From Desulfobulbaceae bacterium (GTDB lineage Bacteria > Desulfobacterota > Desulfobulbia > Desulfobulbales > Desulfocapsaceae), in contig WBUQ01000022.1 of NCBI GenBank assembly GCA_008933635.1, positions 1 through 39,970 on the forward strand: DNA of 39,970 nucleotides, given 5' to 3'. Below are positions 3,151 through 36,676 of this stretch, piece by piece (position 1 is the stretch's first letter; each line of letters begins with the position of its first letter). The notes below the pieces were generated by a model. It was not told the DNA's origin and did not search any database. It saw nothing but the letters and a program-made list of their open reading frames with translations. The translations under genes were made by a program, and so were the position numbers.

Positions 3151-3152
3151 TC

Positions 3153-7250: not shown

Positions 7251-7368
7251 GCAAATTCCGTTTGATAGAGAGTATGACGGGGATCGCGATCCGAGCTATT
7301 CCGCACCTCTCTCAACCGCCATCAAAGGTTGTTTGCGAAGATGATCACGGTTGATAGAGGTCTGGAGC

Positions 7369-7479: not shown

Positions 7480-7503
7480 CCAACACAAGGAAGGATTGCG
7501 ACC

Positions 7504-13177: not shown

Positions 13178-14075
13178 TTCAGGATGGCTAATTGCCTGTC
13201 TCGGCCTGCCGCTGCTGTTTATACAGATTGCCACCTCGTCTATGGCGGAAATGGAGAAGTTTCCTTTCTATGACACCGCCAAGCATGGCTGGTTTTGGTA
13301 TGAGGATCCACCGCCTGAAACTGAGCAAAAGAATGAGACACCGGAGAAACCGGCAAAGGAGACAACCCGTAAGATACCCTCGCTTTCGACATATACCATC
13401 GATGATGTCTGGAACATGCACCCGGACGACTTTCAGAAGCTCCTGGGGGATCTGCAGAAAAAGGCAGTCCAATATCCCACCGAACAAAATATCCTCGAAT
13501 ACCTGACCATGCAGGATATTGCCCGGCGCAAGGCTCTGGCCTATACCCATGCCGCTTCGTACGTGACCCAGAAATACACCGATATTTTTCATATGAATCA
13601 GGTATATCCAATTGCCGAACCAGGGGTTACGGCAAGGGTGCAATTGCAACAGGAGGAAATTGCCGACACTATCCGCGAGGGGAAAAACGATCATGCCCTG
13701 CTCTTTTTCACCAGCCCGAATTGCTCGTTCTGCAGCAAGCAACATCAGATCCTGGCCTATTTTGAAGAAAAATATGGCTGGCTGATCAGGACCGTCGATA
13801 TCAGCCAAAAGGTCGATGCGGCAGCGAGGTTCAACATCACTGTCACCCCGACTCTGCTCCTTATTAGGCGAGGGAAGCCTGATTCCATGCCTGTGGCAAC
13901 CGGCGTGATTTCTCTCTCCGAGTTGGAACGTAAACTCTACCAGGCCATCCGCTCACTGCGGGGCGAGACCACCGGCGACAACTTTATGGTCTATGATTTC
14001 CAAAAAGGCAGCTCTCTTGATCCGACCTCAATTCTACACACGGAAAAACAGCCATGGCAACAATCACCAAGATAG
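13137..14075 (+). CDS. traF: Pilus assembly thioredoxin-like protein TraF
   Basis: This product of about 312 aa starts at ATG 13137, or at 13143, inside the end of trhF. It has a signal segment, then the TraF pattern KHGWFWYEDPPP. The family helix IDDVWNMHPDDFQKLL is followed by a thioredoxin domain with NCSFC at about 195-199 and the cis-Pro segment ITVTPTLLLI. F TraF (247 aa) lacks the CxxC; here both cysteines are present, so this copy may be a working periplasmic disulfide enzyme for TraU, TraH or TraN-type substrates. It overlaps traH by 22 bp. Confidence 0.9.
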   Translation: MAMTYSTKRCRSGSSGWLIACLGLPLLFIQIATSSMAEMEKFPFYDTAKHGWFWYEDPPPETEQKNETPEKPAKETTRKIPSLSTYTIDDVWNMHPDDFQKLLGDLQKKAVQYPTEQNILEYLTMQDIARRKALAYTHAASYVTQKYTDIFHMNQVYPIAEPGVTARVQLQQEEIADTIREGKNDHALLFFTSPNCSFCSKQHQILAYFEEKYGWLIRTVDISQKVDAAARFNITVTPTLLLIRRGKPDSMPVATGVISLSELERKLYQAIRSLRGETTGDNFMVYDFQKGSSLDPTSILHTEKQPWQQSPR

Positions 14076-15532: not shown

Positions 15533-15539
15533 GCAAACA

Positions 15540-18500: not shown

Positions 18501-18674
18501 CTGGTTGATAGCCAGCCCGACAGGCTGGATAATGAGGCAATTTATTATGATACTCCAAGGGGTTCGGATGGCGTGACCATTCCTAAATCTGTGGTGATTC
18601 AGAGAGGAGCTTCTTCATTTGAGGAAGCTGTGGAAATGGAACGAAAAAATATCGGTACTATTAAGAAGGAATAA
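15540..18674 (+). CDS. traG: Mating-pair stabilisation and entry-exclusion protein TraG
   Basis: This 1044-aa inner-membrane protein (F TraG 938 aa) begins with a signal-like segment and the TraG start DMEFYTYGGFAPVTGAFNKI. It has several membrane helices in the first 480 residues (about 50-75, 80-105, 348-400 and 440-480). The long hydrophilic Gly/Ser/Thr-rich C-terminal half would face the periplasm. The N-terminal half supports pilus assembly; the C-terminal half in F contacts TraN and the recipient's TraS. It is the last gene of the operon. No terminator with a T-run is evident after the stop at 18674. Confidence 0.92.
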   Translation: MKKSHLILAAFLCLLFADQALALDMEFYTYGGFAPVTGAFNKIALIFSDASYQGLIFVVTVLGLVAGVITYLMRAVTGARIIPFVWAVPILIGAVVYLGVFVPKGHITVYDPILNRFQTIGEVPDAIVFTAGFLNKVEKGMVDIIDTAAVPEAQYQASAGGIGFKALEAVRDAAPKDAHVKASMTRYIKDCVTFELTRPGTTLTLDDLKNTSTDFLTDLSQAVNPLVYTLYYDAANPEGKNVTCTEAWSRLRPIYANPAFYDDAVKTVCSKAFFDPANPAEITTCKALLTDTLQYTSGITTTPEKLIQQRQIAEILFDFYFKEDYETAMLMEADRKIVATGLGVGLTMNEWIPIMRAIMTAVAIGVIPFLVLFLPTPIAGKAASVMAGFFIFLTTWGITDAVIHGAAMDYAVNIFEDMRQSNLGVYGSAAFPAISTKLLAMFGVIRSAGIMLASFFAMMLIRFGGHALAMLAGNLSSIVQNAGTQAGQLLTPEGMSTALNQQIRAAGMLEGIAEHRFTNMASAEAWNRHRSVGGYTAAMNAKGALQERGQIGQGVSNADMATMMASARMSVGTSRGPVEISTAPDGHGTKMQSETVNADGSSTTMTTGTAGTGVATDKTAHGNATYTADDKGRLTTTQATVNGLDPVKVGAMAQHQKIAAASTRLASDTNWDMAWQQIQKDSSTSSEARSFSNTLNNRIIENWKRAINDRSSFVHSMDESTRNAFQTSIGAGFSKIIGVSGSGTITVEGKDGEKVDFNLSEDTARGFLKDQARVRSEAFKETLQDSNSLDYMTQMAKRIGATEAYSFLQDAKHIESSTESYGADLTTALVRNYAMERYGSESPENIRHTIKDFNEFLTQQGSQGVNNMQGIIRGFVSGGGYGWGRTADEVQSSIDTAKGRISTGMTNLAGSVNQAAATAGASTSGIRQGSFGEPKSDIGMDEPTGDMALRAADRVRQFNSIEESGQGRIRTTTSGMIKEAIGHGPVGLVDSQPDRLDNEAIYYDTPRGSDGVTIPKSVVIQRGASSFEEAVEMERKNIGTIKKE

Positions 18675-19621: not shown

Positions 19622-21205
19622 TTAGTTATCAGAGGACTTCGTAATTTCGTAGGAAAAATCATCGTTCAACATTTTTATCGTAGTATAAAGGATGAAGAAC
19701 ATCACGATGGTGAACGGAAAGGCGCCAACAATGGAAGCCGTCTGTAAAGCCTTCAACCCTCCCATCACGAGAAGAATGCCGGCGGAACCGCCCATCGCAA
19801 CGCCCCAGAGGATTTTGATGCTGTTTTTAGGATCAGGATTACCGCCGCTTGATAGCATGCCCAGGACGATTGTGCATGAATCGGCGGAAACGACGAAGAA
19901 GGTGAAACAGACAAAAAGCAGGAGCGGTGCAATAATTCCGATCAACGGATACTGGTTAAAGAGGACATAGACCGCACTGGCCACGTTCTCCCCGATAGCC
20001 TTCCACAGGATGCCCTTGGTCGCTTGCGCCCTTTCCATGGCAATCGCCGATGAACCGAAGATGTCGATGAAAACGAAGCTAAAGGCTGTCGGCGCAATCA
20101 TGCTTGCCAGAACGAATTCTCGGATGGTCCGGCCCTTGGAAATCTTGGCGATAAACATGCCGACGAAAGGTGCCCAGGCGATCCACCACGCCCAGTAGAA
20201 GATCGTCCAGCTGCCCAGCCAACCCTTCTGCTCGACTGGGTCCATCCACAGGCTCATCTTGATGATGTTCTGGAGGTAAAGACCGGTGGCATTGACGAAG
20301 TTGTCGAGGATGTATTTGGTCGGTCCGACCAGGAAAAGGAAGATCATCAGCAGGATGCAGACAGTCATGCTGATATTCGAGCCAACCCTGATCCCCTTCG
20401 AGATAGGCAGGCAGGCCGAGGCTAGATAGCAGGCAACGACAATAACCAAGAGAATGACGTATAGGGAGGTGTCGATCGTCACCCCGTAATTGAAGTTGAT
20501 TCCGGCCGCAAGCTGCAGGACACCTAACCCGATGGTGGTGCACATGCCGAAAAAGGTGGCTACGAGGGTGATGATGTCAATCATTTTACCGATGGGCCCG
20601 TAGGTCCGTTCCTTGAGGATCGGGTAGAAGCAGGAACTGATCAAAGCAGGCAGCCCTTTTTTGAACATGACGATGCCCATGACGATACCAACGACAACAA
20701 AGGTCGCCCAGGCGCTCAGCCCCCAGTGGAAAAAGGAGATAGCCATTGACCACTCGGCTGCCTGGGCACTGCCTGGCGGGCCTGCATAACTCGGGCCTGA
20801 CAGGTAGTGGTACATGGGCTCGGCCACCGACCAGAAGATTAGGCCGACACCCATGCCGCAGCCAAAGAGCATCGAGAACCATGAAAAGTTTGAGTATTCG
20901 GGACAGTCGCCGGGAGTTCCTAGAACGACCTTACCGTATCGGCTACCGGCCATGAAGAAACAGAAACAGAGAAAGACGAAGACTCCGCCCATATACATCC
21001 AGCCGGCAGATTTGATGGTCCAGGCCAGGGCGGCATTGGACACGTCAGCGAGGCTTTCCGTGTCTATCACACCCCAGAGTGTAAAGCCGAAACAGATGAT
21101 TGCGGAAATGACAAATACCAGAGAGTCCAGTCTGCCTAGAAAACCCCAGTTCTGAGTGTGATGGGCAATGGTTGCAGGTGATGTCGCCTGTTTCGTATCA
21201 TCCAC
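19622..21205 (-). CDS. BCCT-family betaine/carnitine/choline transporter (first copy)
   Basis: This 527-aa, 12-helix transporter imports quaternary ammonium compounds, usually with Na+ or by exchange. The glycine-rich stretch GCGMGVGLIFWSVAEPM and the signature WTIFYWAWWIAWAPFVG, which supplies substrate-binding aromatics, are both intact. I prefer the GTG at 21205 because AAGGGG lies 8 nt upstream; the frame is open to a GTG at 21286 without a ribosome site. It is the last gene of the mtg cluster, 184 bp after the RACE gene, so it is probably induced with demethylation. The long-tailed substrate specificity cannot be told from sequence. Confidence 0.93.
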   Translation of the reverse strand: MDDTKQATSPATIAHHTQNWGFLGRLDSLVFVISAIICFGFTLWGVIDTESLADVSNAALAWTIKSAGWMYMGGVFVFLCFCFFMAGSRYGKVVLGTPGDCPEYSNFSWFSMLFGCGMGVGLIFWSVAEPMYHYLSGPSYAGPPGSAQAAEWSMAISFFHWGLSAWATFVVVGIVMGIVMFKKGLPALISSCFYPILKERTYGPIGKMIDIITLVATFFGMCTTIGLGVLQLAAGINFNYGVTIDTSLYVILLVIVVACYLASACLPISKGIRVGSNISMTVCILLMIFLFLVGPTKYILDNFVNATGLYLQNIIKMSLWMDPVEQKGWLGSWTIFYWAWWIAWAPFVGMFIAKISKGRTIREFVLASMIAPTAFSFVFIDIFGSSAIAMERAQATKGILWKAIGENVASAVYVLFNQYPLIGIIAPLLLFVCFTFFVVSADSCTIVLGMLSSGGNPDPKNSIKILWGVAMGGSAGILLVMGGLKALQTASIVGAFPFTIVMFFILYTTIKMLNDDFSYEITKSSDN

Positions 21206-21389
21206 TCCGAATTCCCCTTCTATTGACTCGATTGATATAGGTAAACTGCCCAGGTGTCGGTCTATCCGGGGCGGTTCATAATCCACGCGGTCGGCGGTGC
21301 CGGCCGGTGGATGAACAGGAAAATTCTTTGCACGTCTTTTACAACAATCTATCTGTTTCTCACAATAGGTCTAGTGCGTTACGGTTTGT

Positions 21390-23015
21390 TCAACTGTCGG
21401 ACTTTTCCGGTCGGGTGCTGTCTGGCGCCGGGAATTTCAGGCGGTCGATAAATCGCTGCTGGAAATCGGCATTGGCAGCCAGTTCAACGATCGCCAGCGA
21501 TGAGGCCAGCTCCATCGACTTTTGAAAAGACGCCGGCTCGCAGAGGGCCATGACTGTTCCACCACCGGCGGCGTTGCCGACATTTTCTATTCTGTCCTGA
21601 CCGATATGCGGCAGCATGCCGAGAGCGATCATGTCGCCGGCATCGATATGGGAGCCAAAAGCTCCGGCTATCAGAATCCGGGACGGTTCCTTTATCCCGG
21701 CCGTCCCGAGGAGATAATCGATACCGGCCCGCAAGGCGGCCTTGCCGAGTTGGACAGCACGAATATCCTTCTGGGTCAGGGTGATGGGTCGGCCGGTACC
21801 TGAGCGGTGGGCGGGAACGATCTGATAGCAGTGTGAGCCTGATTCGTCCCGGGTGAGCCCTAGGATTTCTCCCGAATGCAGGAAGGCCCCTGACTTCTCG
21901 ATGATGCCTGTCCGTAGCATTGCCGCCAGGAGACTGACCACACCCGAACCACATAGTCCGACTGGCTTAATGTCGCTTCTGTCGGCCTGGTCGCCGATGA
22001 GCCGGAGGCGGGGCGGAGCGTCCCTGCGGTCGATGGCCACCCGATCTATCGCCCCAGCTGCGGCCTGCATGCCACAGGAGAGGGTGGCACCTTCGAAGGC
22101 CGGGCCGGTGGCGCAGGAAGTGGCGAACATTCCGTCCTGGCCGGTCAGGACCAACTCGCCGTTGGTGCCCAGGTCGACAAGCAGTGTCCCGGCTGGCCGA
22201 GCCGCGATATCGATGGCCAGGACGGCTGCCAGGGTATCGGCCCCGATGAATCCGGAAACCAGGGGAAGGGTGCGAAGCCGGCACAGGCAGGATCTCAAGC
22301 CGAGTGCGTCAGTGCTTGTTTGTCGCGCTTCGGTAAAAGCGGGGCAATAGGGAGAGACGCCAATCGGCTCAGGGTTTTCTCCCAGCAGAATATGGATCAT
22401 TGTCGGGTTGCCGGCGACGACGATCTCGCTCACCGAGGCCGTATCAATGCCGGCAGTGGTGCAGAGGCGGTGGATGGCTTGGTCGATGAGGGCGAGGACG
22501 GGACGCTGCAACTCCTCTGTACGTCCTCCGGCGGCGGCAACGGCGCTGATCCGGTTCATTACGTCGTCTCCGTAAAATGCCTGGGGATTCCGCACAGCCA
22601 GCGAAGCCGATATTTCGGCGTTACCAAGCCGGCATAGGTAGAGACCGATGGTGGTAGTGCCGAGATCGATACCGACTCCATGACCTGATGGCGATCCAGA
22701 GCGCTGCATTCGCCGCCGAAATGTCTCCGGCAGAAACAGGGGGGCCTTGTCTACGATATAGGCCGGATAACGCGAGGAGGCAGGGATGTCGACGGTGAGA
22801 TTCCGATCAACGCGGAGTTGGCAGGCGTTGACCATGTCGGCGCCTCCCTCATTCCGGCCAATGGCCACCTGGCATTTTTTGCAGCGGCCGGTGCCGCCGC
22901 AGTCGCTGCGGAGAAAAATACCGTGGTCAGCCAGTCCGAGCAGTAATGTTTGGCCATAGGCGAAATCGAGATCCACACCGTCAGGTTGGAGCTGTATCCG
23001 GCAGGATTGGCGCAT
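21390..23015 (-). CDS. Corrinoid-protein reductive activator (RACE/RamA-like, ferredoxin plus ASKHA)
   Basis: This 541-aa protein has an N-terminal [2Fe-2S] domain with the cluster pattern SDCGGTGRCKKCQVAIG and a further Cys (about 39-65). A linker follows, then an actin-like ATPase core from about 112 (GIDLGTTTIGLYL, then LVDLGTNGELVL and ILIAGAFGSHIDAGD). This is the RACo/RACE architecture that uses ATP and low-potential electrons to return Co(II) corrinoid to Co(I). It lies 124 bp after the mtgA-like gene in the same orientation and so probably serves the adjacent corrinoid protein. It differs from archaeal RamA, which uses a C-terminal 4Fe-4S domain. Confidence 0.92.
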   Translation of the reverse strand: MRQSCRIQLQPDGVDLDFAYGQTLLLGLADHGIFLRSDCGGTGRCKKCQVAIGRNEGGADMVNACQLRVDRNLTVDIPASSRYPAYIVDKAPLFLPETFRRRMQRSGSPSGHGVGIDLGTTTIGLYLCRLGNAEISASLAVRNPQAFYGDDVMNRISAVAAAGGRTEELQRPVLALIDQAIHRLCTTAGIDTASVSEIVVAGNPTMIHILLGENPEPIGVSPYCPAFTEARQTSTDALGLRSCLCRLRTLPLVSGFIGADTLAAVLAIDIAARPAGTLLVDLGTNGELVLTGQDGMFATSCATGPAFEGATLSCGMQAAAGAIDRVAIDRRDAPPRLRLIGDQADRSDIKPVGLCGSGVVSLLAAMLRTGIIEKSGAFLHSGEILGLTRDESGSHCYQIVPAHRSGTGRPITLTQKDIRAVQLGKAALRAGIDYLLGTAGIKEPSRILIAGAFGSHIDAGDMIALGMLPHIGQDRIENVGNAAGGGTVMALCEPASFQKSMELASSLAIVELAANADFQQRFIDRLKFPAPDSTRPEKSDS

Positions 23016-23139: not shown

Positions 23140-23940
23140 CTATGCGACAATCTTGCCGGCACGAACCGCCTTGATGTACTTCATACAATAATTGTCGTTG
23201 CCCTTCACCATATCAGCGGTGGTCATCAGTGCCATGATATCCTTGTCGAGGGGATCCATGATAGCGGAATCGAAACCATGGGCGATCATCATCGCCAGGA
23301 AGCAGCGATTGATGATCCGGCGTTGCGGCAGGCCGTAGGAAATGTTGGAGAGTCCTCCGGTGATATGCACACCCGGCAGTTCGCTGACGATGGTCGCCAC
23401 CGCCTGCATGGCGATGCCGCCGTTCCTGATATCGACGCTCATCGGCTGGATCAGCGGGTCGATGAAGATGTCGTCCCGCTTGAAGCCGATCTTCTCGAGC
23501 TCGGCGACCAGGGAGCGGGCCCGGCCGACGATGTCGTCGATCGATTTCGGCATGCCGGAGTCGTCCATGCACAGGGCGATGATCCGGCAATCCTTGCCGG
23601 CGAGATAGCGCATCATAGACTCGAACCGGTCGCCCTCCAGGCTGATGGAGTTGATCAACGGTTTCTTGTTGACCAGTCCGTAAGCCATTTCGAGGATGTT
23701 CGGGTCGGGGCTGTCCAGGCAAAGGGGGAGCTGGGTGGCACTCTGCACAACCTCGAGTAGCCAGCGCATATCGGCCTCTTCATGGCCGATGCGGGCACCG
23801 GCGTTGACGTCGATGTAGGTTGCGCCCGCCGCATCCTGCTTTTTGACATCGTCGATGATATACTCGGCATTGCGCTCGGCAACCGCCGCCTGGACTTTTT
23901 TCAGGGTGGTATTGATCCGTTCGCCGATAACAGTAAACAT
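23140..23940 (-). CDS. mtgA: Methylcorrinoid:tetrahydrofolate methyltransferase (MtgA-like)
   Basis: This 266-aa TIM-barrel enzyme of the pterin-binding methyltransferase family moves a methyl group between the corrinoid protein and tetrahydrofolate. The start is typical (FTVIGERINTTLKKVQAAV), followed by ATYIDVNAGARIGHEE with the conserved Asp, LCLDSPDP, PLINSISLEGDRF and GGLSNISYGLP. The last holds the Asn that contacts the pterin N5 side in characterised relatives. The length matches stand-alone AcsE or MtgA proteins. AAGGAAGG precedes the ATG. It lies 29 bp after the corrinoid gene. The name follows the Desulfitobacterium glycine betaine system; the substrate there is folate, and the role here is by analogy. 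Confidence 0.9.
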   Translation of the reverse strand: MFTVIGERINTTLKKVQAAVAERNAEYIIDDVKKQDAAGATYIDVNAGARIGHEEADMRWLLEVVQSATQLPLCLDSPDPNILEMAYGLVNKKPLINSISLEGDRFESMMRYLAGKDCRIIALCMDDSGMPKSIDDIVGRARSLVAELEKIGFKRDDIFIDPLIQPMSVDIRNGGIAMQAVATIVSELPGVHITGGLSNISYGLPQRRIINRCFLAMMIAHGFDSAIMDPLDKDIMALMTTADMVKGNDNYCMKYIKAVRAGKIVA

Positions 23941-23969: not shown

Positions 23970-24605
23970 TTATTGCTGCAGCAGGCTTTTCGCGAGTTTG
24001 CTGGCCGCGCCGGCGTCCGGAGCATAGCCGTCGGCGCCGATCTCATCGGCGAAGGCCTGGTTGACTGGGGCGCCGCCGACGATGATCTTGAGGTTTTTGC
24101 GCAGACCGCTTTCCTCGATGGTCTGGATCGACTTCTTCATCATCGGCATGGTGGTGGTCAACAGAGCTGACAGACCGACGATGTCCGGTTTGTTGTCGAT
24201 GATGGCCTTGACGAAATCTTCAGGCGAGATATCGACGCCGAGGTCGATGATCTCGAAACCAGCGCTCTCCAGCATCATTTTCACCAGGTTTTTGCCGATG
24301 TCATGGAGATCTCCCTTTACGGTGCCGATGATCACCTTACCGACCACAGACGACTGGCCGTCGGCCAACAGCGGCTTCAGTATCTCCACCGACTCGCTCA
24401 TCGCTTGGGCGGCCATCAAGACCTCCGGGATAAACATGTCGCCGCATTCCATCTTCGCACCGACGATATCCATGCCGGAAATAAGGGCGTCGTTGAGGAT
24501 GGTGTTGGCCGGTATGCCGGCATCGAGGGCCTCCTGAACCAGTTTCTGCAATGCTTCGCCATCGCCGGAAATAAGAGTCTCTGTGATTGTGCTCAATTGT
24601 GACAT
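23970..24605 (-). CDS. mtgC: Corrinoid protein (MtgC/MttC-like)
   Basis: This 211-aa cobalamin-binding protein has the normal two parts. A four-helix cap (about 1-90) is followed by a Rossmann-like B12 domain with GDLHDIGKN (about 119-127, the cobalt-ligand His), GLSALLTTTM and GGAPVN. It carries the methyl group between the MttB-type enzyme and the tetrahydrofolate methyltransferase. AGAGGT precedes the ATG. It is 149 bp after mtgB and 29 bp before mtgA. Such proteins are named by partner (MttC, MtgC, MtpC), so the exact name depends on the substrate. Confidence 0.93.
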   Translation of the reverse strand: MSQLSTITETLISGDGEALQKLVQEALDAGIPANTILNDALISGMDIVGAKMECGDMFIPEVLMAAQAMSESVEILKPLLADGQSSVVGKVIIGTVKGDLHDIGKNLVKMMLESAGFEIIDLGVDISPEDFVKAIIDNKPDIVGLSALLTTTMPMMKKSIQTIEESGLRKNLKIIVGGAPVNQAFADEIGADGYAPDAGAASKLAKSLLQQ

Positions 24606-24754: not shown

Positions 24755-26176
24755 TCAGCCCTGCTTTCTGCGGTTGACATATTCGGTCAGATCCTTTTCG
24801 ATGCCGGCATCGATATCGGGCTTCTCGTATTTGGCGAGACGCTGTGTCAACTTGTTATCGGCAATTTCATTGATCTTCTTCTTGCCGGCGGCCGACCAGG
24901 CATCGTAGTTGCTGCGCGACATCAAATCCGGCAGGAAGAATTCGGTACGGCACAGCTTGAAGGTCTTGGGATTGGTGAGGTACTGGCCGCCGGGACCGAC
25001 CTTACAGATCATCTCGACATCGATTGATTCGTCGGTGATGTCGATCGGTTTTAGCATCCGCCTGACCATGCCGCAGACCTCTTCATCGATCAGAAATTTT
25101 TCGAAGCTCATTGCAATGTAGCTGCCGAGGATGCCGGCTGCGTGCAATACGAAATTGATGCCGTTGCGAGCTGCGGTGTAGAGGGCCAGTGCTGATTCGG
25201 CCCCGGCTTGGGCGTCGGGATAGAGAGCGTCGGTCAGGCCGCCGCCGGATCGGCTGGGTAGGTTGTAGAAGCGAGCCATCTGCGCCGTGTAGTTGATGTT
25301 CTTCGAGAGCTCCGGGGCACCGATGGACAAGGCGCCGGTCTTCATGTCCATTGCCGAGGAGGTCGAACCATAGATGACCGGCACTCCCGGCCGGACCAGT
25401 TGTGCAAGGGCCAGGCCGGTGAGGATCTCGGCATTCTGCATAGCCAGTACGCCGGCCAGGGTAACCGGTCCGGAGGCGCCGGCCATGATCAGCGAGGCGA
25501 TGACCGTGGCCTGGCCATGCCGGGCCAGTTCGATAAGTGAACCAGCCATTTCCTCGGAAAACTGCAGCGGCGACAGAGAGTTGATCAGTGAAACGGTGAC
25601 GGGCTTTTCGACGATCCTGTCCTTGCCGCCCCAGGCGATGGCTGCCATTTCGATGCCGTCAATGGCCCCCTGTCGGGAAACCGGGCTGCCCATGAAGGGC
25701 TTGTCGCAGAGCAGGATGTTGGACAGGGTCATGTCGAGATGGACGGTTGCGGCCGGCATGTCTGAAGGTTCGACCATCATCCAGCCGTTCATGTCGATGT
25801 ACTTCGAGGTCTGGATGAGGCGGCAGAAAGTGTCGTAATCCTCCATCCGGGCCTCGCGCTGCGTGCCTTGGCCATCAATCACGTAGGGGGCACCATAGCC
25901 GGGCAGGAAGGCGAAATTGTCACCACCGATGGCCACGCTTTTTGCTGGATTACGGGCTTCGACAGTAAAGGTGGCGGGTGCGCTGGCCAGCGCCCCTCTG
26001 ATCTGCTGTTCGGTTGGGAATACCGTCTTATTTTCCACCCGATAGCCGTGCTTCTTGAAAATCGCGAGCGCCTCTTCCTCGTTCACGACGATGCCGGTCT
26101 TCTGGAGTATGGCCATGGAGGCGTCATGGATTTTTGTCATCTGATCGGAGTGTAGCTCCTGCATTCTGTCGTACAT
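24755..26176 (-). CDS. mtgB: Non-pyrrolysine MttB-superfamily methyltransferase (glycine-betaine type)
   Basis: The product is 473 aa from the ATG at 26176, preceded by AAAGGAGACCACA. It belongs to the trimethylamine methyltransferase superfamily, but the frame is continuous with no in-frame UAG, so it is a pyrrolysine-free member. Characterised relatives (MtgB, MtpB, MtcB, MtyB) demethylate glycine betaine, proline betaine, carnitine or butyrobetaine. Family segments include PGYGAPYVIDGQG, GVPVIYGSTSSAMDMKTGAL and the C-terminal YDAWSAAGKKKINEIA. The BCCT neighbours support a betaine as substrate. Glycine betaine is the most likely guess and the exact compound is not proven. A sigma-54 promoter lies about 205 bp upstream. 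Confidence 0.9.
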   Translation of the reverse strand: MYDRMQELHSDQMTKIHDASMAILQKTGIVVNEEEALAIFKKHGYRVENKTVFPTEQQIRGALASAPATFTVEARNPAKSVAIGGDNFAFLPGYGAPYVIDGQGTQREARMEDYDTFCRLIQTSKYIDMNGWMMVEPSDMPAATVHLDMTLSNILLCDKPFMGSPVSRQGAIDGIEMAAIAWGGKDRIVEKPVTVSLINSLSPLQFSEEMAGSLIELARHGQATVIASLIMAGASGPVTLAGVLAMQNAEILTGLALAQLVRPGVPVIYGSTSSAMDMKTGALSIGAPELSKNINYTAQMARFYNLPSRSGGGLTDALYPDAQAGAESALALYTAARNGINFVLHAAGILGSYIAMSFEKFLIDEEVCGMVRRMLKPIDITDESIDVEMICKVGPGGQYLTNPKTFKLCRTEFFLPDLMSRSNYDAWSAAGKKKINEIADNKLTQRLAKYEKPDIDAGIEKDLTEYVNRRKQG

Positions 26177-26380: not shown

Positions 26381-26397
26381 AGCAAAGCCTGTGCCTG
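26381..26397 (-). promoter_or_regulatory. Sigma-54 promoter of the mtg operon
   Basis: On the minus strand AGGCACAGGCTTTGCT gives the invariant GG (-24, 26394-26395) and GC (-12, 26382-26383) with exactly 10 bp between, plus CAC after GG and TT before GC as in the consensus. The start would be near 26370, leaving a 195-nt leader before mtgB. A sigma-54 activator is encoded just upstream. Confidence 0.75.
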
Positions 26398-28254: not shown

Positions 28255-31089
28255 TCAAGCTAGATCCGGAGTGCCGGTTAGATCGGCGGTGATGATCCGT
28301 TCTAGAAACAGGGGGACTCCCTGGGCGGTGTTGACTACCCGGTCGTCGATACTGATCCGCACCTCACGGTTGCTGGTGCCGGCTCTTACACCCTGATTGC
28401 GTACGCTGTACTGCAGATGTTCGACCGCCCATTTCTGGGCGGCGGCCAGATCGGTGAATGACCGGGTGCCGGCCACTCCGGAGACCACAAAGCCCCCCAA
28501 GTTTCCCGGTCGGATGACCAGTTTCTGATGGATGACGATCCGGCTGGTGATCGCTCCCACAGCGTTGGCGACATCGCCATCTACCGGAACGATCACTTGG
28601 GCGCCGAGAATTCTCTCCACTCCTGGCAGGAAAAACCCGATCGGGGCGCCGACCCCGATCACCGGGATATGCAGCCGGGCAGAGATCGTGTAGCGCGGGG
28701 AGAAGGACGGGTCGAGCAGGCATTCGATCAGGTGCTGAAGGACGGGTGATGCCGCCGACTCATCTGACGCGATCTGCCGCCGTTCCCGCTGGCCTGCGTC
28801 CCTGGCGTCCCGGAAAGCCAGATGTCGGACTAGTTCGAGGGCAAGCGCCTTCTCGATTCTGCCGAGCAGTTCGGTCACCAGTTCCAGGGTGTTCCTGCCG
28901 GCGGCGGCGCCCATCACCTCGAGCATCTTCCCTGCGGGGACGGGGTCCCAGCGCCGGTAAGTGCCGAGGATATGCAGGAGATCAGTCGGGGTGAGCCCTG
29001 AGCGCTGGACAAGGCCGCTCTCCGTCAACCGGTCCATCGGCAGGAAGCGGGACGAGACGAGTCCCAGGGCTTCGGCCAGATCCTCAGGCGTGTGCGGCCG
29101 ACTACGCAGCAACTCGACAATCCGCCGTTCGGCAGCGGACGGTGGAAAGGTCCAGTCGGCGCCTGGGGCGAGCAGACAGATGGTCTGTTCCTGATGGAGC
29201 AGGGTCTCGTGCTCCAGGTTCGCCAAAACCTGCAGAACTCCGGCGGGATCGATATTGCCGGCATAAACCAGCGGGACTACACGGTTCGGCCCGATCGTAA
29301 ATCCACTCTGCCGCCACTGGATGAGACTGTCGCCACCGAGGCCGACAGTCTGCATATCCAGAGCTTTGACATGGGTAAAGAATCCTCCCACTCGGGCTCC
29401 CCGCTCGCAGATCGTCACGGCACCATTGCTGATCTCGGCGATATCCGAGGTGGTACCTCCCATGTCGACCACCAAGGCCTCACTCAGGCCGGTTAGTAAG
29501 CGGGCTCCGGCAACGCTCGCAGCCGGCCCTGAAAGGATGGTTTCGACTGGCCGCTCCCGAGCCATTCTGGCCGAGACCAGAGTGCCGTCGCCCTTGACTA
29601 CCATGATCGGCGCAGTAATGCCAAGTGATTGGAGGATGGTTTCGATATCGGCGAGAAAACGGATCACCAGCGGGATGATTCGGGCATTGAGGACAGCTGT
29701 CTGGGCTCTGACCGTGAAATCGAGGAGATCGGAAAGCTCATGGCCACAGCAGACGACCATCCCCGTCTCCTGCTCGATAAACTCTTTGACCTGCAATTCA
29801 TGGATCGGGTTGACCGCGCCGGCAAAGCCGGAAACGGCGAAAGCCCGTACCCCGTCGCGGTCGACCATCTCGCGGGCGGTCCGGCGCACCTCCTCTTCGT
29901 CGACCGGTGCGATTTCCTGGCCATCGATATTGATGTAGCCTCCGATAAGCCGTTTCGGGGCATGGCTGATCAAGTCGCAGCAGGCCTTGCCGGAATTGTG
30001 CATGACCAGCAAGCCGGTCTTCTGGCCGTGGGATTCGACGATGGCGTTGGTGGCCAGGGTGGTCGACACCGAGACCATCGCCACCTGGGCCAGCAGAGTT
30101 TGCTCAAGGTCGGCCAGGGCCTGGCCGATGCCCTGAGAGAAATCCCATTTGGTGGTCAGGCTCTTGCTCTTACAGAGGACTCGCTGATCAGAGAAATCGT
30201 AGATGACGGCGTCGGTGTATGTGCCGCCTGCGTCGATGCCCAAGCCGTAGCGGATTTTGGGCCGGGTGTTGCTGGTATCTTCCAGGGGAATGACTGCCGC
30301 GGGCACTTCCGGTTGCTTCGGTCCAGTGGGCAAGGCTGTACCGGCAGCGGTGAGCGGGGCACAGTCGAGTCCGTCTATCAGCGCGGAATAGAATGTACAG
30401 TACCCTGGTGGTACGACGAGGATGTCGTCGCTGGACCACTCCTGGGTCAGCAACCGTCGCAGCAGACTGTCATCGCCGGTCAGCTGTTCGTAGCGCCAGC
30501 CATGTTCTTCGGCCATCTTCCTGGCTTGTCGGGCATATTTGCCGCTATGGTCGAGGCCGGTATCGATGAAGGCCGCCCGCTGATAGTTTTTCTGCCAGCT
30601 GGAAAAAAAGTCGATGATCCGTTCGGCGCCGCGTTCGCCGTACTGCGCCCGGAGGGCCTCGCTACCCATCGCCTCCGAGCCGACCCAGATCTTCCTGTCC
30701 TTGCCGGTGGCGGTCCCTTTCGCCAACTGCCAGCCGGCAGTCAGATAGAAGGTGCCGGGATACTGGGCGAACTGGGTTTTGTAGGCCTTATCGCTGCCGA
30801 GAAAGAGGGCGACGCAGTCGTGGACCCGGGGAAAGACAACCGGCACCGAGGTGGCATGAATGCCCACCGTGCCCCGGCCGCAGATGCCATATCCGACGAT
30901 GATCCGACAACAGTCATGATCCTCTGCTGCGCTGTCTATGGCGGCTTGCAGCCGCGTTTGCAATTCTTTCGGCTTGTCGTGCAAACCTGCCGGCAGAAAG
31001 GTCATCGTCAATTGCAATTGCAGATCGGCGGCGATCCTGTTCAGGTCGGTGGCGAGAACGCCGCAGCCTATCAGATGCACTGTCTTCAC
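28255..31089 (-). CDS. DUF1638 - hydantoinase/oxoprolinase (ASKHA) fusion protein
   Basis: The 944-aa product starts at GTG 31089, with GGGAG 7 nt upstream; the frame is open to 31140 without such a site. Residues 1 to about 230 match the DUF1638 family: IGCGVLATDLNRI near the start, then GLHDKPKELQTRLQAAID, GYGICGRGTVG, PRVHDCVALFLGS and YPGTFYLTAGW. A Pro/Thr linker leads to a hydantoinase-A-like ATPase module from about 283 (YGLGIDAGGTYTDAVIYDF, later VDMGGTTSDIAEI and the C-terminal GVGAPIGFFLPG). Stand-alone DUF1638 genes often accompany corrinoid methyltransferases. An ATP-driven helper or reactivator for corrinoid proteins is a reasonable inference. True hydantoin hydrolysis is not supported, since no HyuB is nearby. 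Confidence 0.85.
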   Translation of the reverse strand: MKTVHLIGCGVLATDLNRIAADLQLQLTMTFLPAGLHDKPKELQTRLQAAIDSAAEDHDCCRIIVGYGICGRGTVGIHATSVPVVFPRVHDCVALFLGSDKAYKTQFAQYPGTFYLTAGWQLAKGTATGKDRKIWVGSEAMGSEALRAQYGERGAERIIDFFSSWQKNYQRAAFIDTGLDHSGKYARQARKMAEEHGWRYEQLTGDDSLLRRLLTQEWSSDDILVVPPGYCTFYSALIDGLDCAPLTAAGTALPTGPKQPEVPAAVIPLEDTSNTRPKIRYGLGIDAGGTYTDAVIYDFSDQRVLCKSKSLTTKWDFSQGIGQALADLEQTLLAQVAMVSVSTTLATNAIVESHGQKTGLLVMHNSGKACCDLISHAPKRLIGGYINIDGQEIAPVDEEEVRRTAREMVDRDGVRAFAVSGFAGAVNPIHELQVKEFIEQETGMVVCCGHELSDLLDFTVRAQTAVLNARIIPLVIRFLADIETILQSLGITAPIMVVKGDGTLVSARMARERPVETILSGPAASVAGARLLTGLSEALVVDMGGTTSDIAEISNGAVTICERGARVGGFFTHVKALDMQTVGLGGDSLIQWRQSGFTIGPNRVVPLVYAGNIDPAGVLQVLANLEHETLLHQEQTICLLAPGADWTFPPSAAERRIVELLRSRPHTPEDLAEALGLVSSRFLPMDRLTESGLVQRSGLTPTDLLHILGTYRRWDPVPAGKMLEVMGAAAGRNTLELVTELLGRIEKALALELVRHLAFRDARDAGQRERRQIASDESAASPVLQHLIECLLDPSFSPRYTISARLHIPVIGVGAPIGFFLPGVERILGAQVIVPVDGDVANAVGAITSRIVIHQKLVIRPGNLGGFVVSGVAGTRSFTDLAAAQKWAVEHLQYSVRNQGVRAGTSNREVRISIDDRVVNTAQGVPLFLERIITADLTGTPDLA

Positions 31090-31175
31090 GTTGCCACTCC
31101 CGATGATTGATTGCGCCGCCCCCGATCCGGCTTGCGGCACGCAGGCTGATGGCCGGGCCCGGGTAAATTAGTGGT

Positions 31176-31241: not shown

Positions 31242-32741
31242 CTATTTCCTGGCTCCGGAGTCTTCCCGGAAGGCGACGATGATGCTGTAACACATCACCA
31301 ACATGATAAGCATGAAGGGGAAAGCTGCCGCAATCGAGGCGGTTTGCAGGGCCTTGAGGGCGGCGGTGCCACCGACGAGAATAAGCATGATGGTAATCGC
31401 ACCTTGGGCTATTCCCCAGAAACCTCGTAACTTTTTGCTCGGATCCATGTCGCCGCCGGAGGTCAGCATGGCGAGGACGAAGGTAGCCGAGTTGGCAGCG
31501 CCGATGAAGGAGGCGACAATCAGGACGATTGCCAGCGGCCCGGTCAGCCAGTACATCGGCAGTTGCTTCAGAGTGACGAAGAAGGCCGTGGTGTAATCGG
31601 CGTTGACCGCTTCCTTGATCGCCCCGCCGCTTGCCTGGTCGAGTTGGAAGGCGGCGCCACCGTAAATCGCCAACCAGATGAAGGAGAAGCCGACCGGCAA
31701 CAGGGTGACGGCAAAGATGAATTCCCGGATCGACCGGCCTTTGGATACGCGGGCGACGAACTGACCGACGAACGGTGCCCAGGCGATCCACCAGGCCCAG
31801 TAGAAGATCGTCCAACCGGAAACCCACTTGATGTTGTCCATCCACAGAGTCTGACCGACAAAAGTCTGCAGGTAGGCGCCGAGAGTGCCGGTGAAGGTGT
31901 TGAGGATCCCGACCATCCCGCCAAAGAGGAAGATGAAGACCATGAAGCCGATTGACAGCCAGATCTTCAGATTGGCGGCGAACTGCATCGCCTTGTGCAG
32001 ACCGGAGATGGTCGCAAGGGTGAACAGGACGGTGATGACGGCGATAATGACGGCGATGGTTCCCGGCGTTGCCTCAATTCCCCAAAGGTAGTTAAGGCCG
32101 GTGGCGATCTGACTGGAACCGAGGCCGAGGCTGGTGGCGACGCCGAAGACGGTGGCGAACACAGAGAGTATATCGATTGCTTTGCCGATCGGGCCGTAGA
32201 TCTTATCTCCGATCAGCGGGTAGAAGGCTGAACTGACCAGGAAGGGCAGGCCGCGGCGGAACTGGAAATAAGCTAGGGCAAGACCGCAGATTGCGAAGAT
32301 GACCCAGGCGTGGATGCCCCAGTGGAAAAAGACAATGCGCATTGCGGTGGCTGCCGCTTCCGGGGTGCCGCCTGTTCCGACCGGCGGGCTGAGGTAATGC
32401 ATGATCGGTTCAGCGATCGACCAGAATACCAAGCCAATACCCATGCCGCCGCCGAAGAGCATGGCAAACCACTGAAAATTGGTGAACTCCGGCTTGTCTT
32501 CGTCTTTGCCGAGCTTCAATTCGCCGTAGCGGCTGAAGGCGATGCCGTAGGTGACGACGAGGAAAATGGCGACGGAGAGAAGATAGAGCCAGCCGAAATC
32601 AGTCGTCAGAAATGCGAATACCTTGTTCACGACGTCTGCGGTCTGTGTTGGCCAGAACATGCCGAGGACGACAAACAACAGTACGATAGATGAAGAAATG
32701 TACAGCACGAGATTTCCAGGTGAGGCTTTTGCTTGAGACAT
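31242..32741 (-). CDS. BCCT-family betaine transporter (second copy)
   Basis: This 499-aa, 12-helix transporter is related to the first BCCT gene but clearly distinct. It has GGGMGIGLVFWSIAEPIMHYL in the glycine-rich region and GWTIFYWAWWIAWAPFVGQF in the signature. It lacks the long hydrophilic N-terminus of the first copy and has a short C-tail, so osmosensing tails like those of BetP are absent. This points to nutrient uptake. AAGGGA precedes the ATG. A very good sigma-54 promoter lies about 195 bp upstream, so it should be co-induced with mtgB. Confidence 0.94.
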   Translation of the reverse strand: MSQAKASPGNLVLYISSSIVLLFVVLGMFWPTQTADVVNKVFAFLTTDFGWLYLLSVAIFLVVTYGIAFSRYGELKLGKDEDKPEFTNFQWFAMLFGGGMGIGLVFWSIAEPIMHYLSPPVGTGGTPEAAATAMRIVFFHWGIHAWVIFAICGLALAYFQFRRGLPFLVSSAFYPLIGDKIYGPIGKAIDILSVFATVFGVATSLGLGSSQIATGLNYLWGIEATPGTIAVIIAVITVLFTLATISGLHKAMQFAANLKIWLSIGFMVFIFLFGGMVGILNTFTGTLGAYLQTFVGQTLWMDNIKWVSGWTIFYWAWWIAWAPFVGQFVARVSKGRSIREFIFAVTLLPVGFSFIWLAIYGGAAFQLDQASGGAIKEAVNADYTTAFFVTLKQLPMYWLTGPLAIVLIVASFIGAANSATFVLAMLTSGGDMDPSKKLRGFWGIAQGAITIMLILVGGTAALKALQTASIAAAFPFMLIMLVMCYSIIVAFREDSGARK

Positions 32742-32934: not shown

Positions 32935-32950
32935 AGCAATTGCTATGCCA
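32935..32950 (-). promoter_or_regulatory. Sigma-54 promoter of the second BCCT gene
   Basis: On the minus strand TGGCATAGCAATTGCT matches the sigma-54 consensus at nearly all positions: TGGCA at -24 (GG at 32948-32949) and TTGC at -12 (GC at 32936-32937), 10 bp apart. The start would be near 32924, with a leader of about 183 nt. Confidence 0.82.
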
Positions 32951-33505: not shown

Positions 33506-34147
33506 TCAATTGCTCACACCTACAATTCGTAAAAATAAGTCGTATAGCCTTTTCGGGGTATCTTTTGCGCACTGTGTCCCAAGAATGGCCTCATCGCATC
33601 CGCCTCGAAAACTGTAAAACATGACCACTGCAGTCCAGTGTTCGTCATTAACAGTCCAAGCTCCCGCTTTGGCACCATCGCCAATCAACTTCTTAAGATG
33701 TTTTGTTATTTCAGCATCTGCCATTGCGTTTCGAAACGGCATGCCTGAACCATAGATTACTACGTCGTGAAGCTCATTTAATTCGAAATATGCATCAACT
33801 GCCCCTTCTATCCATGCCTTGATACGACCGTGCCAATCATCTCCATGGCATTTATCCACGCGTGACCGGATACGCTTCATCACCTCTGATTCGAAACCTT
33901 CCCTTAAGACCTGGAGCAGCTCAGCCTTATTGGAGAAGTAATGATACAGTGTACCTTTCGCGAAATTTGCCGCTGCTGCTATTTCATCCATTGTGGCAGC
34001 TTCGTAGCCTTTCTCAATAAATAGCTTGCCCGCAGCATCAATCAAAGCCGCTCGTCGCTGATCTGCCTTCCTTGGACCTGCAGGAGCTCCGCTTCGACGA
34101 GCAGTCGTGTCCTTCGATCTGTTTGCAATTGAAGCGGTCTTTTTCAT
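33506..34147 (-). CDS. TetR-family transcriptional repressor
   Basis: This 213-aa protein has a basic N-terminal extension and the TetR DNA-binding domain at about 30-78 (RRAALIDAAGKLFIEKGYEA, then MDEIAAAANFAKGTLYHYF). The C-terminal ligand-binding domain is unassigned. It is divergent from the molybdopterin enzyme gene. A perfect 14-bp inverted repeat lies in the gap 62 bp from its ATG, so it probably represses itself and the enzyme gene. The ligand is unknown. Confidence 0.93.
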   Translation of the reverse strand: MKKTASIANRSKDTTARRSGAPAGPRKADQRRAALIDAAGKLFIEKGYEAATMDEIAAAANFAKGTLYHYFSNKAELLQVLREGFESEVMKRIRSRVDKCHGDDWHGRIKAWIEGAVDAYFELNELHDVVIYGSGMPFRNAMADAEITKHLKKLIGDGAKAGAWTVNDEHWTAVVMFYSFRGGCDEAILGTQCAKDTPKRLYDLFLRIVGVSN

Positions 34148-34200
34148 GGTCTCTCCTCATTCTCAATTTCATCTGTATTGTCGCTGCCCATAAAATTTTT

Positions 34201-34239
34201 ATAGACTGACGGTCTATTTAAAATTGACCGTCAGTCTAT
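34201..34239. promoter_or_regulatory. TetR operator, perfect 14-bp inverted repeat
   Basis: ATAGACTGACGGTC (34201-34214) and GACCGTCAGTCTAT (34226-34239) are exact inverted copies with an 11-bp spacer. The left arm extended by three bases is itself a dyad, ATAGAC-N5-GTCTAT (34201-34217). The right arm overlaps the -35 box and spacer of the plus-strand promoter, where bound repressor would block transcription. Confidence 0.8.
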
Positions 34240-34252
34240 TTTAACATAAAAT
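34224..34252 (+). promoter_or_regulatory. Sigma-70 promoter of the molybdopterin enzyme gene
   Basis: TTGACC (34224-34229) and TAAAAT (34247-34252) are exactly 17 bp apart. The start would be near 34259, giving a leader of about 200 nt. The operator arm covers the -35 box. Confidence 0.7.
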
Positions 34253-34340
34253 AAATGTGATTGAAACGCCATATCGAGATCCTGATACTGTTAACTACCT
34301 GGAAAAATATAGAGTTGCCCATGTGTACAGGAGGTTTTTG

Positions 34341-34397
34341 ATGTGTGGTGCAAGTGTCTGGCATAGTGGGACGATGAGTAGGGATGCTTTCAATTGA
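34341..34397 (+). CDS. Possible 18-aa leader peptide
   Basis: An ATG at 34341 follows a perfect AGGAGG with 6-nt spacing and opens an 18-codon frame. Its TGA (34395-34397) overlaps a TTG (34394) that begins the longest frame of the enzyme gene. The peptide has one Cys and one Trp and no repeated codon typical of attenuation. It may couple translation to the downstream gene or simply be a chance frame. Confidence 0.35.
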   Translation: MCGASVWHSGTMSRDAFN

Positions 34398-34462
34398 GGC
34401 TGGTCAAGCCAAGGCTAAAAGGCCATTACCCGAAGTATGTTCAATTAGGTATGGAGGCTCAC

Positions 34463-36676
34463 ATGCAGGAAATTCGGAGAAGTTATTGTGGTCTTTGCCA
34501 TCCGCGATGTGGAACCCTGTTGCATTTGGAAAACGGCAAAGTTGTACAAGTCACAGGGGACCCGGATCATCCAATCACCAAAGGGGTCATCTGCGAACGC
34601 GGCCGATTAATGGTGGATCATCTCTATCATCCGGATCGCCTAAATTATCCTTTGAAGAGAGTTGGCAAAAAAGGAGCGGGGGAGTGGCGGCAAATCTCCT
34701 GGGAGCAGGCTCTGGACGAAGTTGCCGAGAAGTTATCAGGTTTAAGAAAACAATACGGGGCTGAGACACTTACGTTTACGCACGGCACGAAACGGACATA
34801 TCACTGGGACTGCCGACGGTTTTTCAATCTTTTCGGATCTCCAAATACCTGTGGCGTGAATACTATCTGCATGTGCCCCAGCTATGCCACTGAGTTTGCC
34901 ACCTATGGCGGCATGATCATGGGGAGCGAGGTGCCTGCTGCCAAGTGCGTTGTCTTATGGGGCTGCAACGCTTCCCAGTCTAGCCCGGTCAATCTCTCTC
35001 CCAAGCTGATTGCGGCACGTAAAAATGGTGCAAAGCTCATCATCATTGATCCAAGAAGAATTAATGAGGTGGGAAAGGCGGATCTATGGCTGCAGATTCG
35101 CCCAGGAACAGATCTTGCTCTTATGCTTGGTTGGATTCGTTTGATTATCACTGAAAATTTGTATGACAGTGATTTTGTATCCCGCTGGACTATTGGTTTT
35201 GAAGAATTGAAAGATGCGGTCGAACCATACACTCCGGAGAAGGTTTCGGAAATTACCTCTGTGCCTGCCGGTCTCGTTACGGAATCGGCAAGAATGTATG
35301 CGGCAAACAGCCCGGCTGTAATTCCTTTTGGGCTGGGGCTGGACAAACAGGGTGTCAATTCCACGCAGTGTGCGAGAGGTCGGGCAATTCTCCGGGCGAT
35401 TACCGGCAATCTGGAGGTTCCAGGTGGGGAGGTTTTTTCTTTGGCCGGTAATGTGGGGAAAATCAGGGATGCTGAATATTTCGAGTTGAACGAAATGCTC
35501 CCTGAGAGCCAGAGAATCAAACAGCTTGGCGTAGATCGATATCCGTTTTTTGGGTTTCCGGGATGGGAAAAAACCTCGGCTGCCAACAAGAAACTTCCCG
35601 AAGGATACATGGCCGCGCCTGAGGCATGGCATTCCAACCTGGCCCACGCCAGGGAGGTTATGAACGCCATTATTACCGGCAAACCATATCCGGTAACAGC
35701 CGCAATCACCCTCGCAAACAACCCGCTTCTTGCCTTACCCAATACTAAACGGGTATTTGAGGCTCTGCAGGCACTTCAGCTTTATGTGGTGGTGGATTAC
35801 TACATGACCCCGTCAGCGGCAATGGCTGATTATGTTTTCCCGGCAGCCTCTACGGTGGAAACATCTGAACTGTGGCTGACCGGAAGATTCTGTATGGCCT
35901 GCCCTCAGGGGATTGAGCCAATGTATGAACGGCGCAACAGCTATGACTTCTACCGTGGGCTCGGTATGCGGTTAGGCCAGGAAGAATACTGGCCATGGGA
36001 AAGGATTGAAGATGTATATGACCATTGCCTGGAGCCGATAGGACTGACGTTTGGCCAGATGGTAGACCAGTACGGAATATTTGGTGAGATGGAATATCGC
36101 AGGTATGAACGTTTTGGATTCGGCACCCCATCAGGCAAGGTTGAGCTGAAATCATCCATATTCGAAGATCTCGGGGCCGATCCTCTTCCTCAATACCGTG
36201 AGCCTGTCTGGAGTCCGGCGGGTAGTCCGGCACTGGCTGAGCAATATCCTCTGATTCTCATTACCGGAAGCCGCTTTATGCCCATGTATCATTCGGAGCA
36301 GCGTCAAATCGACAAGGCCCGAAAGAAAATGCCCGACCCTCTGGTCTCGATTCATCCCGACACCGCAAAACAATTGGGGCTGTCCGAGGGTGACTGGGCT
36401 GTGATATCAACCCCGCTGGGGTCGATACGCCAGCGGGTAAAAATCTCAGACGTCATGCATCCCAGAATGGTTGATATCCAGCATTCCTGGTGGTTTCCCG
36501 AACGGGGTGCAAAACTTCCTGAGCTATGTGGTGTTTTTGAATCAAACGCCAATATTCTTTGCCCGGATGACCCTGAATTCTGCAGTCCTGAAATAGGCAG
36601 CTGGCCACATTCGGCGTTGCTATGCCGGGTTGAAAAAGAAGTGGAGGATATGAACACGCTCAAGAGAAAGAGTTAA
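34463..36676 (+). CDS. Stand-alone molybdopterin oxidoreductase, acetylene-hydratase-like branch
   Basis: The product is 737 aa from ATG 34463, with GGAGG 5 nt upstream; a TTG at 34394 would add 23 residues. It is a DMSO-reductase-family enzyme with a 4Fe-4S site near the N-terminus (CGLCHPRCG, then a fourth Cys in GVICERGRL). A likely Mo/W-ligand Cys lies in ICMCPSYA. There is no Tat signal, so it is cytoplasmic. Segments such as DRLNYPLKRVGKKG, ISWEQALDEVAEKL and TPSGKVELKSSIFEDLG recall acetylene hydratase. However, the Asp of its CxxCD motif is His here, so that reaction is not supported. No partner subunit follows. Substrate unknown; repressed by the divergent TetR by inference. Confidence 0.85.
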   Translation: MQEIRRSYCGLCHPRCGTLLHLENGKVVQVTGDPDHPITKGVICERGRLMVDHLYHPDRLNYPLKRVGKKGAGEWRQISWEQALDEVAEKLSGLRKQYGAETLTFTHGTKRTYHWDCRRFFNLFGSPNTCGVNTICMCPSYATEFATYGGMIMGSEVPAAKCVVLWGCNASQSSPVNLSPKLIAARKNGAKLIIIDPRRINEVGKADLWLQIRPGTDLALMLGWIRLIITENLYDSDFVSRWTIGFEELKDAVEPYTPEKVSEITSVPAGLVTESARMYAANSPAVIPFGLGLDKQGVNSTQCARGRAILRAITGNLEVPGGEVFSLAGNVGKIRDAEYFELNEMLPESQRIKQLGVDRYPFFGFPGWEKTSAANKKLPEGYMAAPEAWHSNLAHAREVMNAIITGKPYPVTAAITLANNPLLALPNTKRVFEALQALQLYVVVDYYMTPSAAMADYVFPAASTVETSELWLTGRFCMACPQGIEPMYERRNSYDFYRGLGMRLGQEEYWPWERIEDVYDHCLEPIGLTFGQMVDQYGIFGEMEYRRYERFGFGTPSGKVELKSSIFEDLGADPLPQYREPVWSPAGSPALAEQYPLILITGSRFMPMYHSEQRQIDKARKKMPDPLVSIHPDTAKQLGLSEGDWAVISTPLGSIRQRVKISDVMHPRMVDIQHSWWFPERGAKLPELCGVFESNANILCPDDPEFCSPEIGSWPHSALLCRVEKEVEDMNTLKRKS

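Follow-up and report, generated by a model that had tools for sequence, protein, structure and literature searches.

Corrinoid methyl transfer is central to how betaines, methylamines and methoxy compounds are used anaerobically, as well as to part of methionine synthesis, and ASKHA-type ATPases of the RACE/RACo/RamA kind act on the corrinoid proteins. A 39,970 bp stretch of DNA from a Desulfobulbaceae bacterium (contig WBUQ01000022.1, assembly GCA_008933635.1; hereafter, the window) encodes one such RACE together with a second ASKHA ATPase, of the hydantoinase A (HYUA) type, that is fused to a DUF1638 domain. What does this fusion do in a locus that already encodes a reactivator? The comparative analysis reported here leans, with somewhat more confidence than doubt, toward an ATP-driven accessory that keeps corrinoid methyl-transfer proteins in service, acting beside RACE and not in its place.

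The fusion gene

The fusion lies within a single open frame on the reverse strand (28255-31140, 961 codons) containing no internal stops. A GGGAG motif precedes a GTG codon at position 31089 and homologues start at about the same place, so the likely fusion gene spans 28255-31089 and encodes 944 aa, in agreement with the coordinates of the preliminary description. The frame matches Pfam families DUF1638 (PF07796) at residues 48-231 (E = 2.3e-39, 135.3 bits against a cut-off of 27, profile positions 1-161 of 161), Hydant_A_N (PF05378) at residues 300-458 (E = 6.1e-30, 104.7 bits against 25.2) and Hydantoinase_A (PF01968) at residues 478-619 (E = 3e-34, 119 bits against 22.9), the latter match covering only the first half of its profile (positions 1-145 of 291). 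A tblastn scan of named genomes, comprising the best 80 of 89 loci, yielded a match spanning both domains in 71 of the 80, which argues that the domain join is not an assembly slip and bears out the union of DUF1638 with a hydantoinase A ASKHA ATPase originally proposed for this gene. Among these 71, the match falls in two frames at L078, L137 and L140. Three further loci (L136, L143 and L146) are cut by a contig end but still contain the junction. One locus (L142) matches by the ASKHA module only, and five (L147, L148, L150, L151 and L152) by DUF1638 only.

Predicted anatomy of the two halves

The model of the whole fusion has a mean predicted local distance difference test score (pLDDT) of 90.1 and a predicted template modeling score of 0.79, with a linker (residues 246-279) that, judging from the model, is probably flexible. 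Modeled alone (mean pLDDT 91.1), DUF1638 shows two Rossmann-like lobes by strand and helix order. Across 57 aligned DUF1638 members, including that of the window, residues C9, H37 and C92 are invariant and C70 is conserved in at least 90%, and all four sit after successive strands of the first lobe. The ends of such strands are the usual gathering place of ligands and active-site residues. These four residues may therefore bind a metal, and our own reading of the alignment is that the Cys3His set would be a mark of the DUF1638 family. Comparison of DUF1638 alone with the PDB returned no match with E ≤0.001 (best Z 8.6, near the background level usual for such comparisons), and its profile produced only chance-level matches to solved structures. 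The match list includes racemases, asparaginases and sugar-binding proteins, but none stands out and no fold relative is claimed.

Sequence search recovered six solved chains, each of which matches the hydantoinase half. The fold of this half (approximately residues 277-943) is closest to acetone carboxylase (5svc_B, Z 29.4, root-mean-square deviation 3.7, 515 aligned residues), with relatives at Z of about 20-29. This fold is common to the acetone carboxylase beta, caprolactamase and N-methylhydantoinase A-type subunits. Unlike those enzymes, the fusion has DUF1638 attached, lacks a HyuB partner at its loci and contains a winged-helix-like insert (residues ~650-710), modeled as helices and a strand and showing weak helix-turn-helix matches. 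The insert was ruled out as a feature special to the fusion family, since it is common to four short hydantoinase A proteins, together with a TPTD motif. The ASKHA half carries the phosphate motifs GIDAGGTYTD and VVDMGGTTSD, which are kept in both fused and unfused forms, and a GxGAP motif.

The activators of 2-hydroxyacyl-CoA dehydratases (1hux and 4eht), which operate by ATP-driven activation, have a similar ASKHA core (Z 17.7 over 225 and 236 residues), but conservation analysis detected no conserved Cys set suited to a bridging cluster in the HYUA half of the fusion. Pfam search of the fusion gave no BcrAD_BadFG match at E 0.01, and three long unfused relatives reached 13.7-16.5 bits against a cut-off of 31.5. 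The fusion also differs from RACE, RACo and RamA, as it has no RACo domain match (PF17651, PF14574) at E 0.01 and no ferredoxin domain match. Its DUF1638 half does bear the nearly invariant Cys/His set, which may form a metal site.

Genomic association with corrinoid methyl transfer

Genes surrounding the fusion were labeled in 76 loci (75 distinct, window excluded) using profiles built in this analysis from few seeds, so that divergent corrinoid genes are missed; at L080, for instance, a UroD-like gene beside the fusion was labeled only at a looser limit and then confirmed with Pfam. Of the 76 loci, 35 (34 of the 75 distinct) contain one or more genes of the MttB, corrinoid, pterin, UroD or RACE types, and the same holds for 28 of the 50 that extend to 14 kb or more. 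In the 49 genomes with a fusion, observed neighbors outnumber those expected for MttB (14 vs. 1.18), corrinoid protein (6 vs. 0.64) and RACE (5 vs. 0.42), under an expectation that assumes uniform placement and ignores gene clustering and relatedness. Of 76 loci examined, counting that of the window, 20 have a core corrinoid gene in the same-strand run of the fusion, although such runs can be bridged by small unlabeled open reading frames (ORFs). UroD-type as well as MttB-type systems are found beside the fusion.

The unfused forms follow the same pattern. Corrinoid-type neighbors occur at 6 of 10 loci with long unfused HYUA and at 7 of 13 with a lone DUF1638, compared with none of five for the short-type HYUA used as control. 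DUF1638 is encoded in 10 of 12 genomes with long unfused HYUA vs. 1 of 12 with the short type (p = 6e-4, not corrected for relatedness); among those ten, G132 has DUF1638 only within its fusion, the G397 match is the adjacent pair of locus L142 and the G337 match is partial. The operon at L142 encodes MttB, HYUA, RACE, DUF1638 and a pterin methyltransferase as separate genes. The excess of corrinoid neighbors over random placement, the co-occurrence of DUF1638 with long unfused ASKHA proteins and the L142 operon sustain the initial suggestion that DUF1638 works with an ATP-driven partner on corrinoid proteins, but reactivation and cofactor loading, the two tasks suggested for the pair, are inseparable by sequence.

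Genome-wide co-occurrence was assessed in 50 genomes, 49 with the fusion and one with the split pair. B12-binding_2 is present in 49 of these, a RACo domain in 47 and MttB in 39. Among the 11 genomes without MttB, eight have RACo and ten have B12-binding_2, indicating that the fusion is not restricted to settings with MttB-type enzymes. In the Planctomycetota, RACo is present in 11 of 12 fusion genomes vs. 48 of 148 others sampled (Fisher p = 8e-5, not corrected for relatedness). Several MttB genes in fusion genomes (e.g. G352, G359, G363, G369 and G396) contain a single in-frame TAG, the pattern that pyrrolysine would produce.

A number of observations weigh against a role in corrinoid upkeep. 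RACo is missing from three of the 50 genomes. B12-binding_2 is present in 9 of 14 control genomes, which makes its co-occurrence with the fusion weak evidence, and 56 of 58 relatives from the window's order carry RACo, rendering RACo co-occurrence uninformative within that order. No corrinoid gene was labeled in the DNA surrounding 41 of the 76 fusions, and since 22 of these 41 loci are at least 14 kb long, short contigs do not account for all of them. Scanning of seven upstream genes at the Omnitrophota locus L109 identified six with cell-wall and division functions and one sugar-isomerase-like TIM barrel, the frame of which overlaps that of the fusion. Similarly, none of 12 further DUF1638 loci, with the pair apart or the fusion elsewhere, has a labeled corrinoid gene, but these belong mostly to a divergent branch, given that the DUF1638 profile recognized only 4 of the 12. 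Lastly, the ATPase half is not always needed by DUF1638: in a Phaeobacter fitness study, only a RamA-like protein and DUF1638 were picked out (PMC5764234).

Distribution and origin of the fusion

Records spanning both domains are titled or classed as Thermodesulfobacteriota, Planctomycetota, Omnitrophota, Kiritimatiellota, Verrucomicrobiota, Lentisphaerae and Spirochaetota, encompassing at least seven phyla; some metagenome-assembled genomes bearing the title Deltaproteobacteria have a Myxococcota classification, and L146 belongs to the Abditibacteriota. Carriers include Desulforhopalus singaporensis DSM 12130, Desulfospira joergensenii DSM 10085, Desulfofustis glycolicus DSM 9705, Desulfocicer vacuolatum DSM 3385 and Desulfosarcina widdelii PP31, the last with a complete chromosome. 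Within the window's phylum the fusion is sparse, with only 3 of 297 sampled genomes spanning both domains, the window's own among them. DUF1638 is present in 20 of the 58 relatives, and a frame of fusion length with a strong match in two, again counting the window's own genome. The survey of fused and adjacent genes advocated in the preliminary description thus returned both arrangements, the fusion in most named loci and the adjacent unfused pair in the L142 operon. No relative was found in viral contigs using six exact peptide patterns of one protein, a search that reaches close relatives only.

In a tree of the ASKHA module, generated with a quick method without bootstrap, all 50 fused rows sampled group with two unfused rows in one 52-row clade (Shimodaira-Hasegawa-like approximate likelihood ratio test support of 100), and the named rows nearest the window are from Desulfobacteraceae, Desulfocapsaceae and Desulfobulbaceae. 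L142 falls outside this clade. The two unfused rows nested inside it come from G132, with its DUF1638 confined to the fusion, and G304, which has a separate DUF1638. This nesting suggests, as the simplest account, a single fusion event followed by two later losses of the DUF1638 half.

Proposed function and alternatives

A link between DUF1638, treated as uncharacterized in the preliminary description, and B12 reactivation has already been published. In a mutant fitness study in Phaeobacter inhibens, DUF1638 mutants (PGA1_c13340) are affected in B12-dependent methionine synthesis, beside a RamA-like protein; DUF1638 fitness tracks that of the methionine synthase genes, as that of the RamA-like gene does, methionine rescues the mutants and B12-synthesis genes look essential (Price et al., 2018; PMC5764234). 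In a Ruegeria pomeroyi proteomics study, DUF1638 (SPO2162) is grouped with RamA as predicted reductive recharging (PMC12478193). These proteins share the named family and the link to RamA/RACE-type reactivation with the fusion but, likened here by description, are described in those texts without an ATPase half (PMC5764234, PMC12478193). A "HydA, hydantoinase" gene is drawn in acetogen glycine-betaine clusters in a figure legend (PMC9768040), set like the fusion with a corrinoid protein, methyltransferases, BCCT and RACE; compared by description only, no DUF1638 fusion is named in that legend. Searches of the open-access literature on DUF1638, or on hydantoinase/oxoprolinase with corrinoid methyltransferases, yielded no mention of the fusion. 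As far as these searches reach, the novelties are the fusion itself, with its wide but scattered distribution and what looks like one origin; the conserved Cys3His residues of DUF1638; the occurrence of both genes unfused within an operon; and the likely joint control by sigma-54 described below.

Four points of the proposed mechanism are inferred: that a metal is bound, that ATP is hydrolyzed, that the fusion touches a corrinoid protein and that the step amounts to reactivation. The DUF1638 half, most likely the part that meets the corrinoid protein, would carry a metal center held by three Cys and one His, and the hydantoinase A half would bind and hydrolyze ATP. ATP-driven motion of the HYUA half, transmitted through the flexible linker, would then drive the step by which an inactive corrinoid protein, oxidized or wrongly held, might be returned to use. 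More tentatively, and with rather more doubt than belief, the fusion could be an ATP-driven corrinoid activator of a second kind, distinct from RACE, in which the Cys3His metal (perhaps iron-sulfur) center of DUF1638 acts directly on the corrinoid and a hydantoinase A-type ATPase, a module known until now for activating substrates, serves as the motor; such an activator would serve corrinoid proteins generally and not betaine systems alone.

An alternative that we consider unlikely, though deserving of attention, is that the fusion is a loading chaperone, inserting the corrinoid into a new corrinoid protein or removing a damaged one by means of ATP and the DUF1638 metal or ligand site. The genomic evidence for loading is identical to that for reactivation, and because almost every fusion genome also has a RACE, a task distinct from that of RACE is suggested. 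We prefer reactivation because of the way that Phaeobacter DUF1638 fitness follows the methionine synthase genes, with rescue by methionine, and because of the grouping of Ruegeria DUF1638 with RamA; methionine rescue in a strain with seemingly essential B12-synthesis genes counts against a role in making the cofactor but does not clearly disfavor loading (PMC5764234, PMC12478193).

It appears improbable that the fusion is instead a metabolic enzyme, the HYUA half of which would phosphorylate or open an N-methyl amide or lactam from betaine breakdown with DUF1638 replacing HyuB, even if its nearest folds are indeed acetone carboxylase, caprolactamase and N-methylhydantoinase subunits, and genes labeled as dimethylglycine-dehydrogenase-like are located near 19 of the 76 fusions. 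The fusion also stands beside UroD-type systems, 11 of the 50 genomes do without MttB, and the DUF1638 phenotype elsewhere is corrinoid-linked (PMC5764234). Moreover, profile labeling placed hyuB at none of the 76 fusion loci, although hyuB (PF02538) is present somewhere in 19 of the 50 genomes. Hydantoin catabolism was rejected on these counts as the principal explanation, and the predominantly hyuB and hydantoin company foreseen in the preliminary description as the pattern contrary to a corrinoid role was not encountered. Least credible, and in our view very improbable, is a sensor or regulator that reads a metabolite or the corrinoid state through ASKHA and winged-helix elements, in the manner of ROK repressors. 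The winged-helix-like insert with its weak helix-turn-helix matches and the regulator gene adjoining the fusion would fit such a role, but the insert and TPTD motif recur in the four short hydantoinase A proteins, at the loci of which no corrinoid gene was labeled, and a dedicated sigma-54 activator already accounts for control.

Gene setting and probable sigma-54 control

In the window (Table 1), a BCCT transporter gene directly precedes the fusion, which is followed on the same strand by genes for a sigma-54 activator, MttB, a corrinoid protein, a pterin-type methyltransferase, RACE and a further BCCT transporter. RACE is thus present, as first described, but not adjacent: it lies ~5 kb from the fusion, with the regulator and the three methyl-transfer genes in between. 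The MttB ORF as listed opens at 26329, and the ATG at 26176 is our choice of start. The best NCBIfam match of the corrinoid protein is MtgC, of glycine betaine systems, but falls below its curated cut-off, so that betaine is the likely substrate of the cluster, short of proof.

Table 1. Location of the fusion gene, its predicted parts and surrounding features in the window.
Feature	Position	Strand	Evidence
DUF1638-HYUA fusion protein, 944 aa, GTG start	28255..31089	-	Pfam, open frame, GGGAG upstream, whole-protein model
DUF1638 domain, residues 1-245 of 944	30355..31089	-	Pfam PF07796, alignment, model
Inter-domain linker, residues 246-279, low confidence	30253..30354	-	pLDDT 48-76 in four blocks 241-280
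Hydantoinase A-type ASKHA module, residues 280-944	28258..30252	-	Pfam PF05378, PF01968; conservation; nearest fold 5svc_B
Winged-helix-like insert ending in LTPTD motif, ~residues 650-710	28960..29142	-	Sub-threshold PF21476, PF17782; model; motif comparison
BCCT transporter, glycine betaine type, directly before fusion	31242..32741	-	NF047988, 728 bits vs. cut-off 650
Sigma-54 activator with PAS, AAA+, Fis-type helix-turn-helix	26602..28128	-	Pfam
MttB-family methyltransferase, stop-free frame	24755..26176	-	PF06253, 501 bits; TIGR02369 below its cut-off
Corrinoid protein (B12-binding and cap domains)	23970..24605	-	PF02310, PF02607; best NCBIfam match MtgC, below cut-off
Pterin-type methyltransferase	23140..23940	-	PF00809; NF005719 above cut-off
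RACE (RACo-type reductive activator)	21390..23015	-	PF14574, PF17651
Second BCCT transporter	19622..21286	-	PF02028
Exact -24/-12 consensus match before BCCT-fusion unit	32935..32950	-	Consensus match
One-mismatch -24/-12 site before mttB	26381..26396	-	Consensus match

All 13 loci encoding both a sigma-54 activator and mttB, several of them close relatives, have a -24/-12 site, no more than one mismatch from the consensus, in the 350 bases that precede the mttB frame, where 0.24 would be expected. Counts of such sites over whole loci do not exceed chance, leaving the position-restricted test as the only informative one. Several Desulfobacteraceae loci have mttB and the fusion in a single run. 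Taken with the -24/-12 sites before mttB and the BCCT-fusion unit, these shared runs make it likely, from sequence features, that fusion and mttB are co-expressed, and that sigma-54 co-controls them at some of the loci.

F-type conjugation genes (TraE, TraK, TrbI, TraC, TraU, TraH and TraG by Pfam; window positions 2431-18674) lie directly beside the putative betaine cluster, which may therefore travel with a mobile element. Beyond the cluster, positions 33506-36676 encode a TetR-type regulator and a molybdopterin oxidoreductase. Several other genes recur around fusions elsewhere. A xylose-isomerase-like TIM barrel (AP_endonuc_2) is found near 8 of the 76 (labeled at L084, L088, L090, L093, L094, L095, L127 and L149), and the TIM barrel overlapping the fusion frame at L109 (9055-9978), where no corrinoid gene is labeled, is of the same family. 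DUF6951, a small uncharacterized family, was identified with Pfam at L054 (8265-8603) and labeled also at L075, L078 and L159, either adjoining the fusion or within the same clusters of corrinoid genes, and an aldehyde ferredoxin oxidoreductase gene is present in the DNA around five fusions (L090, L093, L094, L127 and L133). A second, unfused DUF1638 in G000 (contig C83, L002 at ~1450-3454) adjoins a UroD-type methyltransferase and a corrinoid protein.

Implications

The Phaeobacter fitness study makes no specific proposal for the role of DUF1638, though mutants need methionine (Price et al., 2018; PMC5764234). The fusion to an ATPase, the nearly invariant metal-like site and the shared regulator together offer an experimental handle on that role, and the fusion suggests that some B12-using bacteria have two different ASKHA ATPases for the task of corrinoid upkeep.

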